Source: Candidatus Zixiibacteriota bacterium
GTDB taxonomy: Bacteria > Zixibacteria > MSB-5A5 > GN15 > FEB-12
Reading direction: 5' to 3'
Assembly: GCA_017999435.1 (NCBI GenBank)
Contig: JAGNLV010000004.1
Location: forward strand, 62,001 to 126,000
DNA length: 64,000 nt
A program made the translations under genes and the position numbers. Under the pieces are notes generated by a model. That model saw only the letters and a list, made by a program, of their open reading frames with translations, was not told the DNA's origin and made no database searches. This document shows, piece by piece, positions 27,237 through 36,356 of this stretch (position 1 is its first letter; the number at the start of each line of letters is the position of its first letter).

Positions 27237-27689
27237 CTACTTCTTTCCGTCCACAAACTGCGGCGACGGATCCGGTTCGCTGAGGTACTGGAGAATCTGC
27301 TGGCTGTTGCGCAGTTCCCCGAGCTCCTCCTTGATCCGGTTGACCCGTCCCTGCAGGTATTCGTCGCATTCGGACACCACGTCGACGCTCTTTTTGACCA
27401 GCGTCCGGATGCTGTTGATCGTCCTCTTCACTTCCGGGAGCGCCGCGGCGAGCCGGAAGGCTTTGGGGTGTTTTTCCTGAAGCTGCCGGATCGTCAACTC
27501 CGACCGGGCGATTCTCTGGCGGTAGCGCTCGACCTCGGCCAGCAGATCCAGGAGGTGGTCGTCGCGGTTGAAGCGGACCGCGTCCCGCTGCTTGTCGAGG
27601 GTGAGGTAGAGCGACTGGTAGAACGTATACTCTTCTTTGAGCACCGCCAGCAGTTCGCGTTCGAGTTGTTTGAGCACGTCGTAGTCCAT
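27237..27689 (-). CDS. FliT/FlgN-like flagellar export chaperone
   Basis: 150 residues, nearly all helical with coiled-coil character (LERELLAVLKEEYTFYQSLY, LAEVERYRQRIARSELTIRQ). It sits directly after fliS (9-nt gap) in the position normally held by fliT, the FliD chaperone. The fold resembles FlgN, but a separate FlgN is encoded between flgJ and flgK. FliT-like is therefore the better reading, resting on context more than on a signature. Confidence 0.6.
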   Translation of the reverse strand: MDYDVLKQLERELLAVLKEEYTFYQSLYLTLDKQRDAVRFNRDDHLLDLLAEVERYRQRIARSELTIRQLQEKHPKAFRLAAALPEVKRTINSIRTLVKKSVDVVSECDEYLQGRVNRIKEELGELRNSQQILQYLSEPDPSPQFVDGKK

Positions 27690-27698
27690 GGCGCTCTC

Positions 27699-28133
27699 TC
27701 ATGCCGAGCCGACGAAACCGCCGGGCGCGGCCGCCGGGGCCGGCCCGCTCGGCGCCGGATCGGCCGATTGGGCGCGAAGGCCGATCCAGCCCTCGCGAAG
27801 GTTATTGAGTATGGCAATGTTGTCGTCAATCACGCCCGGGTCGCCGGTGGCCGCGGCCACACTGATCCGGTTGATCACGTAGGCGTACAGCCGCCCGAGT
27901 TGTGCGGAGATGTCGCCGCCCCGCTCGGCGTCCAGGGTCGTGTAGAGGTGGGTGACGAACGTCTGCGCCCGCTCCAGTTGCTCCCGACCGCCGGCCGCGT
28001 CGTCGCTCCGGTACCGGTCGGCCGCCGCCCGGAAGGCACTGATGGCCCCGTCGTACACCTGAATCACCAGTTCCAGGGGCGACTTCCCCGCCATCTCCTC
28101 CCGCCGGTACGCGGCCACTTTGCTGCTCGCCAT
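27699..28133 (-). CDS. fliS: Flagellin chaperone FliS
   Basis: 144 residues from ATG 28133. The longer frame would overlap fliD needlessly. Typical features are AAYRREEMAGKSPLELVIQV near the N-terminus, then YDGAISAFRAA, ERAQTFVTHLYTTLD, and a LYAYVINRISVAAATGD helix, all characteristic of FliS. It binds the disordered C-terminus of flagellin in the cytosol and prevents premature polymerisation. The last 25 residues are a Pro/Ala-rich tail. It lies between fliD and the FliT-like gene. Confidence 0.92.
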   Translation of the reverse strand: MASSKVAAYRREEMAGKSPLELVIQVYDGAISAFRAAADRYRSDDAAGGREQLERAQTFVTHLYTTLDAERGGDISAQLGRLYAYVINRISVAAATGDPGVIDDNIAILNNLREGWIGLRAQSADPAPSGPAPAAAPGGFVGSA

Positions 28134-28156
28134 CTGTTGTTCTCCTCCCGAAGGCA

Positions 28157-30493
28157 CTACTGCTTGCTCGTTCGAAATCCCCAGTTCGTGTTGATGCCCG
28201 CGAGTTGCGATTCGAGGTAGTTTCCGATGCTCTGCATCTCTCCGAGCGTCTGCTCCATGAGGTAGTATTTCTGCAGGAGCGACTCGCGCCGGAGCTTGAG
28301 CCGCTCGTCGATTTCCGCCACCCGTTTGGCGATCGTGTCGACCTGGGACTGGTAGCTCTTGATCCGCCGGTCGAAAGTCCCCTCCTCGGCCTTGGTCAGG
28401 CTCTCGACGACGTCTTTGAGGCGGGCGGCCACGCCCTTGGTCACCGTCACCTGCCCTTCGGCGCCGGAGATCACCTGCGTCTCATCGAGCGTCACCCGGA
28501 GCACCAGGCCGTCGGTGGTCGCGTTTCCCGTTTTTCCGGTCAGCAACTGCCCCTTGCCCTCGGCCGTCTCGCCGTTGATGGTTCCGGCCACATCTTGCCC
28601 GGCGACGCTCTCTCCGGCGGCGAGCCCGAGCGCCACGGCGGCCGAATTGTCGACCGCCTCGATTGTCACTTTCGAGGCCGACCCGTACGAGGCGCTGGCG
28701 ATCGTCAGGTACCCGCCGCCGGCGCTGCTCACCCAGGTGACCGTCACCCCGCGCGGTCCGAGGTTCTCATCGGTGGCGATCCGCGCCTGGATTTCGGCCG
28801 CCAGGGCCTCGCCCGAGCTGTAGCTCCGCGGCGTGAGGTACAGCTCCTGCGACTTGATCCCGTCGACCGTGATCTTGAGGGTGTTGTTCGACCCCGTAAG
28901 CACGAGCGGCGCAGCCTCGAGATTCCCCAGATCCCCCCCCCGGTAGTACCCCTTCGTCGCCGCCTGGGTGATGTCGACGGCGTACCCCTGGCCGACTTTG
29001 GTCGCGGCCGTCGAGGAGACGAATTCGATGCCGGTGCGCGAGGCGGACCCGGTTCGCGACATGAGCGCAATGACGTCGTCGAGATTGGTGCGCAGGGCCT
29101 CTTCGAAACGACCCGCGTCGGTAATCGCGAGCCGTCCGTCCCCCTGCGTCCGGATTCCCAGCGCGTACAACTGGGTGAATTTCGAGTCGATCCCCGGAAT
29201 GCGGTCGGCGACCGCGTTGCTCAGCGAGTTCCGCACCATCCACAGGGTCGCGTCGCCGAACAGGATCCCCGCCTCGTCGGCCTCCTGGTCGTAGCTATTC
29301 TGTTCCTCGATGAAATCGATGACTTCGTTGTAGCGCTTGATGAAATTCTGCACCCTCTCGCGGATCGCCGTGATGTCCCGCTCCGTGCCGACCGTCACCG
29401 TCTCCCCGGGAGCCGTCAACTGCGAGGCCCGCAGGGTCAGCCCTCCGATCACGTTGGTGAAGGTGTTGGTGGCCGAGGTCACAACGATGGGGGATCCCTG
29501 GCCGTCCTGCGAGCCGATGGCGATGCGGGCGTCCGAGGCTTCCTGCAGCGTGGGGGCGAACGTGCTCACCTGGAACGTGTCGCCGCCCGTCAGGATCCCG
29601 GCCGACAGGGTAATTTTGAGCCCGTCCGATCCGACCCCGGCCAGTTCCGTCTCCAGGTCGGCCTGGGTGACGACGATGGCGCCGCTGTTGGTCCCGTCGG
29701 TCCAGTTCAGCGTGATCGGCTCGTTTCCGACCGTGACCGTGGAGGTCCCGGCCACGGTGAAGGTGTAGATCCTGTTGGCCGTTCCCGTGTACGCCGCGGT
29801 CGTGCCGAGGAACACCTTGGCCGTCGACCCGCCCGCGAACGACAGTACTTCGGGCGCGTCGAACGACGGCGTTGCGAAATTCAGGTTCGCCCCGCCCGTC
29901 AGGTCGGATGTCACGGTGATTCGGTTCGCCCGTCCCGTCTTGTCCGCCGTGAGCACGAGCCGGTAGGGGTTCGAGGACGAGCCGTCGTTGACGATGCTCG
30001 CGGTGACCCCGGCGCCGGCGTCGTTGATCGCCTGGCGGATGCCCGCGAGCGAGTTGTTTGTTCCGTCGATCGTAATCGTCTTCAGCGGTCCCGCGCCGGT
30101 CTGAATCCGGATCGTCCCGGTCCCGAGCAGCGCCTGGGTGTCGCCGGCGAACCCCTGGGCGGCGAGCTGGTGGTTGCGCGCGAGCGACAGCACCTGGACG
30201 TCGTACGACCCGCCGGTGACCCGCCCGCTCGCCGTCGCCGAGAGCACGTCCGGGTCGGAGACGGTCACGGCCGCCGCTTCGTAGGACGAGGCCCGCACGA
30301 GCTGGGCCAGTTCGGTGTTGAGCGCGAGGAATTTTGCCTGGAGCGCCTTGAACGCGGAAATGATCGCCGTCTTCTTCGCCTGCTCCTCTTCGAGCAGGTC
30401 GGCGTTGCGCCGCTCCCCCTTGATGATGGTGTCGACGATCTCGGTCGTGTTGAGACCGGAGATTATTCCATCGATGGATCCTATCCCGGCCAT
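28157..30493 (-). CDS. fliD: Flagellar cap protein FliD
   Basis: 778 residues, longer than the 450-500 of many FliD proteins. The N-terminal signature is clear (IDGIISGLNTTEIVDTIIKG), followed by a coiled coil. Central Flagellin-IN-like repeats (TIDGTNNSLAGIRQAINDAG; another near residues 530-620) account for the extra length. The FliD C-terminal domain (SLTKAEEGTFDRRIKSYQSQ, MEQTLGEMQSIGNYLESQL) closes the protein. FliD forms the pentameric/hexameric cap that folds flagellin at the filament tip. It lies 155 nt downstream of fliC, separated by a hairpin, and upstream of fliS. Confidence 0.93.
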   Translation of the reverse strand: MAGIGSIDGIISGLNTTEIVDTIIKGERRNADLLEEEQAKKTAIISAFKALQAKFLALNTELAQLVRASSYEAAAVTVSDPDVLSATASGRVTGGSYDVQVLSLARNHQLAAQGFAGDTQALLGTGTIRIQTGAGPLKTITIDGTNNSLAGIRQAINDAGAGVTASIVNDGSSSNPYRLVLTADKTGRANRITVTSDLTGGANLNFATPSFDAPEVLSFAGGSTAKVFLGTTAAYTGTANRIYTFTVAGTSTVTVGNEPITLNWTDGTNSGAIVVTQADLETELAGVGSDGLKITLSAGILTGGDTFQVSTFAPTLQEASDARIAIGSQDGQGSPIVVTSATNTFTNVIGGLTLRASQLTAPGETVTVGTERDITAIRERVQNFIKRYNEVIDFIEEQNSYDQEADEAGILFGDATLWMVRNSLSNAVADRIPGIDSKFTQLYALGIRTQGDGRLAITDAGRFEEALRTNLDDVIALMSRTGSASRTGIEFVSSTAATKVGQGYAVDITQAATKGYYRGGDLGNLEAAPLVLTGSNNTLKITVDGIKSQELYLTPRSYSSGEALAAEIQARIATDENLGPRGVTVTWVSSAGGGYLTIASASYGSASKVTIEAVDNSAAVALGLAAGESVAGQDVAGTINGETAEGKGQLLTGKTGNATTDGLVLRVTLDETQVISGAEGQVTVTKGVAARLKDVVESLTKAEEGTFDRRIKSYQSQVDTIAKRVAEIDERLKLRRESLLQKYYLMEQTLGEMQSIGNYLESQLAGINTNWGFRTSKQ

Positions 30494-30648: not shown

Positions 30649-32814
30649 TTACTGGAACAGCGACAGAATGATCTGCGGAACCTGGTTGGCCTGGGCCAGC
30701 ATGGCCGTGCCGGCCTGCACCAGGATCTGGTTCTTCGTGAACTCCGACATTTCTTTCGCCATGTCGGTGTCGCGAATCATGGACTCGGACGCGGTGAGGT
30801 TCTCGGCCGCGATCCGCAGGTTGCGGAGGTTGGATTCCAGGGTATTCTTCTGGAACGAACCCAGCGTGCCGCGGGTCGTCGACACCTCGTTGATCGCCGC
30901 GTCGATGATCGCCTGGGCGTCCTGCGCCCCCTGGACCGTCGTCACGTCGATCTCGGCGAGCGAGCTGAACATGTTGGCCGCGAAGCCGCGCCCGAGCGCG
31001 CTGGCCGCCATGTTGCGCAGGCCGATCTTGGCCGTCTGGCCGACGTTGGCGCCGATCTGGAACACGAGCGAGCGATCGACGTTGTTGATCGTCTCGGTCC
31101 CGCCGGCCGAGGTCAGATCGTACCAGAGGACTACCGACTCCGAGCGGTCGGCATTGTAGACCGTGGTGTTCACACCCGCGGTGACCGAGGTCGCCGGGCC
31201 GCCGTCGAGGCGCACGTCGAACTTGGCAGCCTTGACGTCGAGCAGCGCGCTGCCGACGTTGAGGCCGGTCGAGGCCTTGGCGATCGTCAGGTTCAGCGTC
31301 CCGCGGCCCACTTCGCCGGCCGCCTTGTTGGCGATCTCAACGTCCCACGTCGAGCCGTACTTCACCCGGTCCACCGACTGGGTGTAGTTGTCGAAGCGGA
31401 TCAGGGCGTCGGTCCCGGCGTTGGCGATCGAGTCCTCGGTCAGGCCCAGGATGTGCTCGAGATTGCCGGTCGCCGTGCCCAGCGTCCCCATCTGGAGGCC
31501 GTAGGCCGAACCTTCGTCCTTCGTGCGGATCTGAATCTTGTCGCTGTCGGTGACCACCGCATCGACATCATGCTCGCCCGCAGCGCCGCCGGCCACCAGG
31601 CCGAAGGCCGTCCCGAGCTGGGTGTCGATCTCGGTCACGATATCGGCCAGCGAGGTGTAGGTGCCCGCGGTCAGCGTGATCGTCTGCGACACGGTCGAGT
31701 TCGCTTCCGTGGTCGCCGTCAGCGTCAGCTGGTTCGCGCTCACACCCCGGTCGCTGGTCGCGGCGACCGCAAACAGGGCATCGGTCGCGTCGGTCGACGA
31801 GGCCGTCGTCCGGATCGAATACTGCGCGCCCTCGTTGGAGGCGGCCAGCGTGACCACGCCGGCGGCCGCCGAGGCGCTGATCCGGCCGGAGAGCACCGAG
31901 TTCATGCCGATCTCGGTGTTGATCTTGGCCGCCACCGCGTCGGCGTCGTCGCCGAGCTCGATATCGACCGCGATCGTCTGGGCCGAGGTCGTGCCTTCAT
32001 TCACGTCCGAATACTGGACGGTGAAGGTGTAGGTGCCGACGTTGCCGGCGGTCGCCGCCGCAAACGCGCCCGTCGCGATCGAGGCCGCATCGGCGGCCGC
32101 CGCGATCGTCAGAGCGTTGCCGAAAGCGTCCGCGATCTGCACCGACCCGGAGGTCTTCTTCGCCACGTCGGAGGCCTGCACGATGTCGAGGTTGTGGATG
32201 TTCTCGGTCAGGTTGGCCGGATCGCCGTCCGTGTTCGCCAGCGTGAACCCGAGCGCGGTCGTGTTCAACGTCGCCGTCGAATCGGCCGTCTTGGTCGCCG
32301 TAATCGAGTGCGTGCCGCTCGTCAGGTTCGACTGGCGGACCGTCACGGCGGAGTTGTTCGAGCTGGTGATGGTGGCGATGTTCGCCTTGGAGCCGTCGAG
32401 CAGCTTCTTGGTGCCGAACTGGGTGTTGGCCGCGATTCGATCGATCGTGGCGATGGCGTTTTCGATTTCCGCCTGGTCGGCCGCCAGCTGGTCGGCGTCG
32501 TTGAACCCTTCGTTCGCGGCGTGAATCGCCAGTTCGCGCATGGAAATCAGCAAATTGTTGATTTCGTTCAGCGCGCCCTCGGCGGTCTGCACCATGCTGA
32601 TCGATCCTTCCGAGTTGTCGATCGCGCGGTTGAGGCCGGCGATCTGCGCCCGGAACTGCTCCGAAATCACCAGGCCGGCCGGGTTGTCGGCGCCCTGGTT
32701 GATGCGGTAGCCCGAGGACAGCTTCTGCATGGACTGCTGCAGCGAACTGTTCGTGTTCACCAGGTTCCGGTGAGCGTTCAGCGCTGCCAGGTTGTGGTTA
32801 ATGCGAAGTGACAT
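30649..32814 (-). CDS. fliC: Flagellin, large form
   Basis: 721 residues against about 270-500 in many bacteria. The D0/D1 ends are conserved: SLRINHNLAALNAHRNL and KLSSGYRINQGADNPAGL at the N-terminus, and SMIRDTDMAKEMSEFTKNQI and LAQANQVPQIILSLFQ at the C-terminus. Residues about 170-610 are a Thr/Ala/Asp-rich variable region that would form enlarged surface domains. The gene has its own sigma28-type promoter, a leader of roughly 190 nt with CsrA-like sites, and a good Shine-Dalgarno (AGGAGG 8 nt before ATG). It polymerises into the filament. FliS, FliW and FliD neighbours support the assignment. Confidence 0.96.
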   Translation of the reverse strand: MSLRINHNLAALNAHRNLVNTNSSLQQSMQKLSSGYRINQGADNPAGLVISEQFRAQIAGLNRAIDNSEGSISMVQTAEGALNEINNLLISMRELAIHAANEGFNDADQLAADQAEIENAIATIDRIAANTQFGTKKLLDGSKANIATITSSNNSAVTVRQSNLTSGTHSITATKTADSTATLNTTALGFTLANTDGDPANLTENIHNLDIVQASDVAKKTSGSVQIADAFGNALTIAAAADAASIATGAFAAATAGNVGTYTFTVQYSDVNEGTTSAQTIAVDIELGDDADAVAAKINTEIGMNSVLSGRISASAAAGVVTLAASNEGAQYSIRTTASSTDATDALFAVAATSDRGVSANQLTLTATTEANSTVSQTITLTAGTYTSLADIVTEIDTQLGTAFGLVAGGAAGEHDVDAVVTDSDKIQIRTKDEGSAYGLQMGTLGTATGNLEHILGLTEDSIANAGTDALIRFDNYTQSVDRVKYGSTWDVEIANKAAGEVGRGTLNLTIAKASTGLNVGSALLDVKAAKFDVRLDGGPATSVTAGVNTTVYNADRSESVVLWYDLTSAGGTETINNVDRSLVFQIGANVGQTAKIGLRNMAASALGRGFAANMFSSLAEIDVTTVQGAQDAQAIIDAAINEVSTTRGTLGSFQKNTLESNLRNLRIAAENLTASESMIRDTDMAKEMSEFTKNQILVQAGTAMLAQANQVPQIILSLFQ

Positions 32815-33083: not shown

Positions 33084-35822
33084 TCAGCCCGGTCTGACGG
33101 TTTCCAACAGCTCCTGCAGCCGCCGCTGGGCCGGCTCGAAGTCGCGGTCAAGTTCGAGCACCCGGCGGTAGCCAAGCATCGCCGCATCGCGGCAGCCCAG
33201 CTGAAAATAGCATTCCGACAGGCTGAAGAGTGCCAGCCGGTCTCCCGGGTTTCGCTGCAAGCATCTCTCGTACAACGAAATAGCCTGCCGATAGGCGCCT
33301 TGCCGGGCGTGCAGGTCGGCGATCAGATGCACCACCTCCGCCTGCGTCGGATCGGTCTCCGCGCTCCGTTCGAGTGCGGCAATCGCCTCGGCCGGCCGGC
33401 CTTGTCGCACCCGGGTCAGCCCGAGATTGCGCAACACCGCCGCCGACTCCGGCGCCAGTTCGAGCGCCCGGCCGTACCAGTGCTCCGCCTGTTCCAGATC
33501 CCCGGTTTTATAGAAACACCCGGCGAGATCATTATAGAGGTCGCTGTCGGGCTCACCCTCGGCCGCCAGGGCCTCGTACAGCTCGGCCGCCGGTTGGTAC
33601 TGCCCCGCTTTGAAACAGATCTCGGCCGCCGCCCGCCGCCCCGCCCGATCCAGACTGCCGGTCGCCGCGGCGGCCACGGCGAACCGCGCCGCCTGTTCCC
33701 GCGCATCGTAACGCAGCAGTAGCGCGGCCTGGGCCGCCAGATCCGCTCCTTTGGTTCCCGCCACCTCGAGCGCCCGCGCCATGAGCAGCTCTCCGGCGCG
33801 CTCCCGTCCGGATTCGCGGAGGACCAGCGCCTGGCCGACTAAGGCCGCGGCCATTTGGGGCTCGGCCGCGAGCTGCCGGGCAAAGCATTGCCCCGCCTCC
33901 GCCAACCGTCCCGCCGCCAGGTGGAGGTGGCCCATACGAAGGTGAACATCGAGAAAGTCCCCGCCGTCAGCCGCCGCCTGCTCATAGCACTCCCGGGCCC
34001 GCTCGTAATCGGCGCGCGCCTCGGCCGCCATCCCCAGCCCGTACCAGGCCGCGTGGCGGCTCCGCAGGTGCACGACGATGATTTCGTCCCGCTCGGCGGA
34101 CGGATCGTAGGCGGCCTGAGCCTCCAGATAGGCACGGTAGGACTCCTCCGCCTGCTCCGGTTCCCCCGTGCGCAGGTGAACGTGGCCGAGCAGCAGCATC
34201 GGATCGAGGTAGTCGTCTTTCAGCGCGAGCGCCCGGAGCGCCTGCTGGCGGGCCTCGTCATAGGCCCCGGTCAAGTAGCAGGCGAGCGCCCTCTGGTAAG
34301 TCGCCATCAGGTGAATGTGCCGTTCGCCCGGAGCGGACGGGTCGGTCAGTTCCGTCGCCCGCCTCGCCGCGTCCATTATCCGCTGCGCCGTCGCTTCGTC
34401 CGCCGGCGCCCCCAAACCCAGAAGCACCTGCGCGGTGTTGAACAGGGCGAAAGCGTTGTCGGGATCCTCGCGGAGCTGTCGCTCGAGCAGCGTGAGCGTG
34501 CGCTCGGCTTTCGCCCGCATCTTCTCCGGCGCCAGGGCGTAGCCCAGGTGCTCGATGGTCGCCGCCGCGCGCACCACCGGTTCAGCCGGGTCCAGCAGGA
34601 GCTGGTTGTGCACGATCCCCTCGTAGCGCAGGCCAAGTTCCCGCCGGAAAAGGCGCACCGAGGGCAGAAACGTCGTCAACTCGCCGTGCGCACCAGCGGC
34701 GTTCAGGATATTCACGGCGATCGCCCGCGCCCGCGGATCGTCCAGGTACCGGCGGATCGCCGGCACGTCCGCCTCGCTGAACCGCTCGTCGGCGTCGATC
34801 ACGAGGATCCAGTCGCCGGTCGCCTGCGCCAGCGAATAATTCCGGTGTTTCGCGAAATCCCCCTCCCAGGCCTGATGGAAAACCTTCGCCCCGTACTCCT
34901 GCGCGATCGCGGCCGTCCGGTCGGTCGATCCGGTGTCCACCACGATGATCTCGTCGACCCAGTCGCGGATCGATGCGAGGCAGCCCGGCAGCAGCTCTTC
35001 TTCGTTTCGGACGATCAGGCAGGCCGACACGGTCGGCCGCGCCACCAGCGTTTCCGCCAGCATCCGCAATTCATCGGTCCGGGCGCAGGCCCTGAGTCCC
35101 CGCTCCACGGCCGCGCAGGCCTCGTCCCGGCGGCCGTCCCGGCGGTACGCTTCGGCCAGGCTCAGGTAGGGCGCCTGATGGCCGGGATCGGCTTTGATCG
35201 CGCGTTCGAAAGCGGTGGTGGCCGCCGCCCGGTCGCCGCGCGCGAGCGCCGCCTGTCCCTGAATCTCAAGCACCTGCGAGAGGCACCGGTAGTCCCCGGT
35301 GTACTCGTCCCCCCGCCCGTCGGCCTGGAACGCGCGGCGAAAGGCCTCGATGTATCTTTCGGCGGCCGCCTCGGCCTCCGCGTACTCGCGCAGCCGGGCG
35401 GCGACGCGGCACAAGATGTAGTGGGCATCGAGCGACTCCGGGTCGATGGCCAGCGCCCGCCGGGCTTCTTCCTCGGCCGTCAGCGCATCGTCGCGCCGCC
35501 ACCGGGCCAGGGCGCGCAGACGGAAAAGGCGGCTCTTGGCCGCCGGCTCGGCCGGGAGGGTGTCCCCTCCGCCGTCGAGCGCTTCGAGCGCCTGCTCCGC
35601 CTCGCCGCGCCGGAGACACGCCTCGGCCTGGGCTAGCCGCGTCGGCCAGTCGCGGGGGAGCTGCAATGGAGCCGCGGGCGCGCCCGCCGCGCGGGCTTCG
35701 CGTATCGGCCGCATCGAGGCGGCCTTCCGACGCGACCGCGCCGCCCCGGTTCGCCGCACACCTGCCCCCGCGGTCGCGCGCCGCGGACGGCCGGACCGTA
35801 TGCGTCCTGTCGCTTTTGCCAT
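33084..35822 (-). CDS. TPR-rich family 2 glycosyltransferase, candidate flagellin glycosyltransferase
   Basis: 912 residues from ATG 35822, with GGAGAGAGG upstream. A very basic N-terminal 50 residues precedes TPR-like helices (about 60-255). A GT2 domain follows at about 262-470: TVSACLIVRNEEELLPGC, IIVVDTGSTDRT and the metal-binding DADE at 343-346. Many TPR repeats then run to the C-terminus. No membrane segment is seen, so it should act in the cytosol with a nucleotide sugar. It lies between fliW and the fliC promoter, a position where flagellin-modifying enzymes are common, and TPR-GT2 proteins are known in flagellin glycosylation. The acceptor is inferred from position. Confidence 0.75.
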   Translation of the reverse strand: MAKATGRIRSGRPRRATAGAGVRRTGAARSRRKAASMRPIREARAAGAPAAPLQLPRDWPTRLAQAEACLRRGEAEQALEALDGGGDTLPAEPAAKSRLFRLRALARWRRDDALTAEEEARRALAIDPESLDAHYILCRVAARLREYAEAEAAAERYIEAFRRAFQADGRGDEYTGDYRCLSQVLEIQGQAALARGDRAAATTAFERAIKADPGHQAPYLSLAEAYRRDGRRDEACAAVERGLRACARTDELRMLAETLVARPTVSACLIVRNEEELLPGCLASIRDWVDEIIVVDTGSTDRTAAIAQEYGAKVFHQAWEGDFAKHRNYSLAQATGDWILVIDADERFSEADVPAIRRYLDDPRARAIAVNILNAAGAHGELTTFLPSVRLFRRELGLRYEGIVHNQLLLDPAEPVVRAAATIEHLGYALAPEKMRAKAERTLTLLERQLREDPDNAFALFNTAQVLLGLGAPADEATAQRIMDAARRATELTDPSAPGERHIHLMATYQRALACYLTGAYDEARQQALRALALKDDYLDPMLLLGHVHLRTGEPEQAEESYRAYLEAQAAYDPSAERDEIIVVHLRSRHAAWYGLGMAAEARADYERARECYEQAAADGGDFLDVHLRMGHLHLAAGRLAEAGQCFARQLAAEPQMAAALVGQALVLRESGRERAGELLMARALEVAGTKGADLAAQAALLLRYDAREQAARFAVAAAATGSLDRAGRRAAAEICFKAGQYQPAAELYEALAAEGEPDSDLYNDLAGCFYKTGDLEQAEHWYGRALELAPESAAVLRNLGLTRVRQGRPAEAIAALERSAETDPTQAEVVHLIADLHARQGAYRQAISLYERCLQRNPGDRLALFSLSECYFQLGCRDAAMLGYRRVLELDRDFEPAQRRLQELLETVRPG

Positions 35823-35888
35823 GTTTGCCTCTCTCCGCGTGCGAGCGCCGCCGCCGGCCAACCCGAGTGCGCCGGGGCCCGCGCCGCC

Positions 35889-36356
35889 CTAGACTTCGAC
35901 GGTCTCGCGTTCGCGCACCGGTTCTTCGTCGGCCGCCGGCAGCAGCCGGTGCCGCACGCTGTAGCTCGAGTTCACGAGCACCAGTTGCTTGGCGAAATTG
36001 TTGCCCCGGTTGATCACGATCGGACCCTGCAGGTTCACCGAAATGTCCCGCGGGTTTTCCGGAACCGTCACGATCACGTACGTCTCCACCTGCCGCAGCG
36101 AGGTAATCTCCAGGTCCCTCACCTCTTCGGCGTGCACTTCGATCCGATAGTCCGGGCGCACCAGGAGGGGGTTGATCACGATGAAAGCGAGGTCCGGACG
36201 GTCGGCCGACTGCAGCCAGAGAAACGGCCGGAACTCATCCTGCTCGACCAGGAAAAACGTCGCACACCCTTCGAAACCGAGAATCGGTTTCTGCAGACGT
36301 ATGAGCTTTTCCTCGGGCGCCTCGATCGGACCAAAGCGTTCTGTCTGCACTACCAT
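35889..36356 (-). CDS. fliW: Flagellar assembly factor FliW
   Basis: 155 residues with standard FliW features: RFGPIEAPEEKLIRLQKPIL and GFEGCATFFLVEQDEFRPFLWLQS (in two parts) near the N-terminus, then PENPRDISVNLQGPIVIN. FliW binds flagellin or, when free, the C-terminal region of CsrA, releasing flagellin mRNA from repression. Located 24 nt after flgL and one gene from csrA. The C-terminal 15 residues are an acidic tail. Confidence 0.93.
   Translation of the reverse strand: MVVQTERFGPIEAPEEKLIRLQKPILGFEGCATFFLVEQDEFRPFLWLQSADRPDLAFIVINPLLVRPDYRIEVHAEEVRDLEITSLRQVETYVIVTVPENPRDISVNLQGPIVINRGNNFAKQLVLVNSSYSVRHRLLPAADEEPVRERETVEV

Follow-up and report, generated by a model that had tools for sequence, protein, structure and literature searches.

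A predicted TPR-flanked GT2 flagellin glycosyltransferase encoded next to fliC in Zixiibacteriota

The 912-residue protein encoded directly upstream of fliC in the window (the whole stretch of DNA analysed, 64,000 nucleotides of a Candidatus Zixiibacteriota genome) is, with high probability, a flagellin-dedicated protein O-glycosyltransferase, soluble and located in the cytoplasm, that captures its substrate through TPR repeats. Its predicted assignment as a flagellin glycosyltransferase is well supported because the protein is homologous to GmaR, its gene lies beside fliC and the two genes co-occur across the phylum. According to the proposed mechanism, the GT-A domain would bind a nucleotide sugar, which would be transferred non-processively to Ser/Thr of FliC in the cytoplasm before export, and the N-terminal TPR module and the C-terminal TPR superhelix would together act as the scaffold on which flagellin is bound and brought to the active site; GmaR and FlmG are the analogues that suggest this role for TPRs. 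Counted against this reading are one relative with a similar flagellin, in which no glycosite signature was found, and no GT2 domain, another with the GT gene and no adjacent flagellin, the weak clustering of flagellin-linked genes on the GT tree, and that no gene for sugar synthesis could be recognised next to the GT gene in the window.

GT2-TPR flagellin glycosyltransferases are already known as a kind, from GmaR and from predictions in Clostridium, and therefore the window enzyme is a phylum-wide variant of it. Cytoplasmic flagellin glycosylation of the TPR-GT2 type is here extended, by prediction, to the flagellated members of a whole phylum, at a locus with strongly conserved gene order where additional glycosyltransferases and sugar genes come and go. 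Added interest lies in this modular gain and loss, above all in a domain deletion found in one relative, which together with a double-GT2 fusion provides natural domain-swap experiments on the role of the TPR scaffold apart from catalysis.

Anatomy of the protein and its nearest known relatives

The ORF, the Pfam matches and the neighbouring genes (Table 1) confirm the 912-residue TPR glycosyltransferase between fliW and fliC that a sequence-only reading had described. The ATG is at 35822, with a GGAG-type sequence just 5' of it, and a start at the in-frame TTG at 35861 would lengthen the protein by 13 residues. Pfam places Glycos_transf_2 at residues 266-375 (86.1 bits, cut-off 23.3) and also matches many TPR families. 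The AlphaFold2 model, built from a 17-row alignment (mean pLDDT 87.0), has helices at residues 59-260, an alpha/beta GT domain at about 262-425 and helices again at about 432-908, in agreement with the earlier picture of a GT2 domain wrapped in TPR arrays; its pTM of 0.64 makes the relative placement of the domains less certain. The DADE motif, which we take to be the metal/nucleotide-sugar site, is intact: D343, D345 and E346 are invariant and A344 nearly so in the 17 aligned full proteins, and DADE together with the other motif residues is invariant in 29 of 29 aligned GT cores. The highly basic N-terminus was also recovered, since the first 50 residues hold 15 K/R against 1 D/E. The model gives residues 1-49 a pLDDT below 50, and a net charge of at least +5 in the first 30 residues is found in 35 of 40 full-length proteins (the window's included) compared to 1.1% of random internal 30-mers. 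This conserved tail could contact flagellin, RNA or membrane. As a separate observation, the PHROG family 'beta-1,4-glycosyltransferase' matches residues 264-618 (124.7 bits), and thus relatives of the GT2-TPR part are carried by some phages.

Table 1. Features of the flagellin locus in the window.
Feature	Position	Strand	Evidence
TPR-GT2-TPR protein, 912 aa, predicted flagellin O-glycosyltransferase	33084..35822	-	ORF scan, Pfam, PDB match, AlphaFold2 model
Basic N-terminal tail, predicted disordered, residues 1-50	35673..35822	-	composition, model, conservation
N-terminal TPR module, residues 59-260	35043..35648	-	helices in AlphaFold2 model
GT2 / GT-A catalytic domain and following stretch, residues 261-453	34464..35042	-	GmaR 22ao_A match E 2.4e-36; Pfam Glycos_transf_2
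DADE motif, residues 343-346	34785..34796	-	conservation in 17 aligned proteins
C-terminal TPR superhelix, residues 457-908	33099..34454	-	Pfam TPRs, AlphaFold2 model, OGT TPR domain 1w3b
csrA, 112 aa	38326..38664	-	TIGR00202, above cut-off
flgL, 641 aa	36381..38306	-	TIGR02550, 275.4 bits, above cut-off
fliW, directly upstream of GT gene	35889..36356	-	PF02623, 132 bits
fliC, 721-aa flagellin, directly downstream of GT gene, presumed substrate	30649..32814	-	Flagellin_N and Flagellin_C
fliD, 778 aa	28157..30493	-	FliD_N and FliD_C
fliS	27699..28157	-	PF02561, 85 bits

When solved structures were searched by sequence with the full-length query, engineered TPR proteins ranked first, and the TPR superhelix of OGT (1w3b) superposes on residues 504-911 of the model (Z 20.4, rmsd 9.2, 388 residues). 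With the GT domain alone, GmaR (22ao) was the best match (E 1.7e-37 over 192 query residues), followed among the matches cited by SunS (6.9e-18). The window GT domain and GmaR have the stretches SAC-IV-NEE, VDTGSTD, W..DF...RN and IDADE in common, about 70 of 195 aligned positions are identical by hand count, and in both proteins a GT2 GT-A domain is joined to TPRs. GmaR is described as the flagellin GlcNAc transferase of Listeria monocytogenes, a 637-residue protein in which the GT is N-terminal and TPR, linker and antirepressor domains come behind it, and the authors of its structure propose that its TPR binds flagellin (PMC9638930). This order, with the GT first, is not that of the window protein, in which the GT starts at about residue 262, after the basic tail and a TPR module, and precedes a TPR superhelix about 450 residues long. 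That GmaR was not among the matches listed in the fold searches (structures to April 2026) carries no weight. In these searches the best PDB superposition of the GT domain with the first repeats was to the peptide S-glycosyltransferases SunS/ThuS (Z 25.0-27.1, rmsd 2.7-6.3, 278-300 residues), which are alike in the GT-A domain and first helical repeats; however, the window protein is about twice their size, lies in a flagellar locus and scores 69.7 bits against the SunS family TIGR04195, below the NCBIfam cut-off of 350.

PF01973, named MptE-like in Pfam and associated with the Maf flagellin glycosyltransferase, is missing from the 19 Pfam families listed for the window protein; it gave no match in any of 61 genomes either, though among the controls only the archaeal ones were positive. 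GT2-TPR proteins encoded among flagellin genes, which resemble the window protein in domains and location, have been described as predicted flagellin glycosyltransferases in Clostridium (PMC13317340). FlmG of Caulobacter is reported as a modular TPR and GT protein, a cytoplasmic flagellin glycosyltransferase whose N-terminal TPR domain binds flagellin and whose catalytic domain resembles GT-B (PMC7591256), in contrast to the GT2/GT-A domain of the window protein; in layout, the only feature compared, accessory TPR-GT4 genes of relatives are closer to FlmG than the window protein is. Among the papers listed on Zixibacteria and flagella, judged by title and opening lines of the abstract, none was about flagellin glycosylation.

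Linkage of the gene to flagellin

In the window's genome and 60 relatives taken together, 56 of the 61 carry an orthologue that scores above 200 bits. Across 132 Zixiibacteriota genomes, counting a GT at more than 200 bits and a full-length flagellin at a Flagellin_N match with E below 1e-30, 87 have both, 8 the GT only, 5 the flagellin only and 32 neither (Fisher p 4.9e-18, a statistic that ignores relatedness). In the flagellin-only genomes G005 and G079 the flagellin is close to a contig edge, in G094 a GT fragment is truncated by the contig end, in G097 the contig extends 2.4 kb upstream of fliC, and in G003 the GT2 domain is absent within a long contig. Contig breaks also account for some GT-only cases, and in G075, a single 3.3-Mb contig, the GT is present and flagellin is not adjacent.

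The gene order csrA-flgL-fliW-[X]-GT-fliC-fliD is strongly conserved in the phylum, and in the window fliW and the GT gene are direct neighbours. Flagellin-locus regions were taken from 54 of the 60 relatives (leaving out G004, G018, G023, G046, G049 and G059); the loci were picked according to where GT, FliW and flagellin matches fell, and therefore the linkage is partly selected for. Both genes occur in 46 of the 54 loci, with the GT directly upstream of fliC in 45 of them (gap 229-644 bases) and separated from it by a 106-residue ORF in the exception, L080. The other eight have GT without FliC (5), FliC without GT (2; L041 and L042) or neither (1; L074). Outside the phylum, among the matches listed (the best 80 less the five Zixiibacteriota loci), flagellin was within the examined flank at 28 of 75 named loci and not at 47. 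The five best named loci are all labelled Candidatus Zixiibacteriota, and in a tree built from 81 GT cores these five alone share a six-row clade with the window protein (support 99/93), which places the organism in that phylum; flagellin is nearby in 14 rows of the enclosing 22-row clade (98/94). Over the whole tree the flagellin-near label is weakly clustered (21 changes compared to a shuffled mean of 25.8, with 12 of 500 shuffles as low).

Several minor observations concern these loci. In G114 the GT gene is apparently split, with a 658-residue front (L182, 10087-12063) about 1.37 Mb from a 402-residue TPR end beside fliC (L183, 4838-6046), whereas in the congener G115 (L184) it is one 935-residue frame; the split seems to be a rearrangement or a misassembly. 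A total of 12 Glycos_transf_2 matches was counted in the window's genome, which is 98.2% complete at 3.50 Mb in 7 contigs, and a NeuB search gave two weak matches (43.6 and 39 bits) on another contig. This genome also has a second, short flagellin-like gene at G000:C1:936146-936559 (open frame 281 residues), with similar short frames in many relatives. In the window CsrA the Pfam family covers residues 1-53 only, leaving a long C-terminal extension, and 27237-27689, after fliS, encodes a 150-residue protein without Pfam match, for which position would suggest, as a guess, a FliT/FlgN-like chaperone.

A TPR-only frame at one flagellin locus and the alternative readings

The sequence-only reading had named absence of the gene from relatives with the same flagellin as grounds for refutation, and one such relative was found, G003, whose FliC is 63% identical to the window's flagellin and 78% to that of its congener G031. 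Between fliW and fliC this genome has a 320-residue TPR-only ORF (L041, 2912-3874, +) on a 150-kb contig, in a retrieved stretch that contains no N. The ORF aligns to residues 1-205 (48.5%) and the last 91 residues (56%) of the 856-residue enzyme of G031, and lacks the GT2 domain together with the greater part of the C-terminal TPRs, the reading frame being kept. The G031 GT domain, its middle TPRs and its TPR-GT4 neighbour had no tblastn match in the 19-kb locus stretch, and the only match to the GT query in the genome was a 256-residue frame elsewhere (E 4.1e-15). We read this as the loss, in one lineage, of glycosylation by this predicted enzyme. Judged by nucleotide changes unique to G003, constraint on the relic looks relaxed, though its frame is open: the third-position share is 0.39 in one TPR part and 0.27 in the other, compared to 0.46-0.52 in congeners, and therefore the relic may be decaying; it may also still work, or be an assembly collapse. 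FliC of this one genome has 0.160 first-plus-second-position changes per codon versus 0.068 and 0.086 in congeners, and FliW is not faster (0.089 versus 0.127 and 0.089). Loss of Ser/Thr was considered as a pointer to glycosylation sites and rejected, since the G003 flagellin lost 1 of 26 conserved Ser/Thr columns, the same number as the GT-bearing congener G085, and thus gave no glycosite signature.

The deletion also bears on whether a chaperone or regulatory function towards flagellin, exerted through the TPR scaffold, is the protein's main one, with glycosylation secondary or sometimes lost. GmaR, described as bifunctional in doubling as an antirepressor (PMC9638930), gives a precedent, and G003 has kept both TPR ends as an open frame without the catalytic domain. 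We nevertheless consider this improbable, because the catalytic motifs are invariant in all the aligned GT cores and the relic evolves faster than its congeners. A search for MogR (PF12181), the partner of GmaR, gave no match in the window's genome, but none in the control genomes either. From a flagellin-bearing genome that lacks the GT2 domain it follows that loss of this enzyme is possible; a different function for it does not follow. A narrower possibility, rather unlikely as well though less so, is that the TPR scaffold also serves flagellin homeostasis independently of catalysis (as a chaperone, or as a FliW/CsrA partner), in a role that outlives the enzyme, as the TPR-only frame kept in G003 without GT2 and TPR-GT4 would suggest.

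It is very unlikely that the substrate is instead a cell-surface polysaccharide, or a different axial component (FliD or FlgL, for instance), with adjacency to fliC serving co-expression only. The GT2 family is broad, and the Thr-rich 721-residue flagellin to which the sequence-only reading had drawn attention, true in length and composition (11.1% Thr), is unremarkable beside FliD (11.3%), so that its Thr content was rejected as a clue. However, the co-occurrence with flagellin and the position directly before fliC argue for FliC, and the lower-scoring GT2 matches in the genomes searched, mostly frames of about 230-350 residues scoring below 120 bits, are located away from the locus.

Accessory glycosyltransferases and sugar genes at the locus

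A predicted flagellin O-glycosyltransferase is thus retained from the earlier proposal, on GmaR homology, fliC adjacency and co-occurrence, and its relatives show a variable neighbourhood. Tandem TPR units with two GT2 domains are fused in proteins of 1467 and 1464 residues (L040, 1343-5746, and L061, 2230-6624) at the flagellin locus of G002 and G030, two species of one genus, and in the G030 protein the two GT2 domains are 51% identical and both have IDADE. The QxxRW motif is typical of processive GT2 polymerases. Neither this tandem form nor the long TPR superhelix shows processivity, and the processive, polymerising activity that had also been proposed was rejected as scarcely credible, since QxxRW had no match in the window protein and the nearest solved relatives of its GT domain, GmaR and SunS/ThuS, are protein or peptide glycosyltransferases.

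An accessory GT4 domain, absent from the window, lies between flgL and fliD in 18 of the 54 loci. In 13 of these it is within an ORF of 487-615 residues, and all six scanned ORFs of this class combine TPRs and GT4 (L039, L044, L054, L055, L062 and L076); L053 has a GT4 fragment within a TPR ORF and L051 a 333-residue GT4 ORF without TPRs. In family f3 (three genomes) the GT4 ORFs reach 1168-1243 residues, and the two scanned (L071 and L074) contain TPRs, GT4 and GT2. In such relatives, the glycan would be lengthened or altered through the additional glycosyltransferase or through sugar-nucleotide genes. Epimerase genes adjoin all three long ORFs of family f3 and weak methyltransferase matches adjoin two of them, and in more distant families a NAD-epimerase, a DegT aminotransferase, a hexapeptide protein or a Polysacc_synt_2 enzyme is encoded upstream of the GT.
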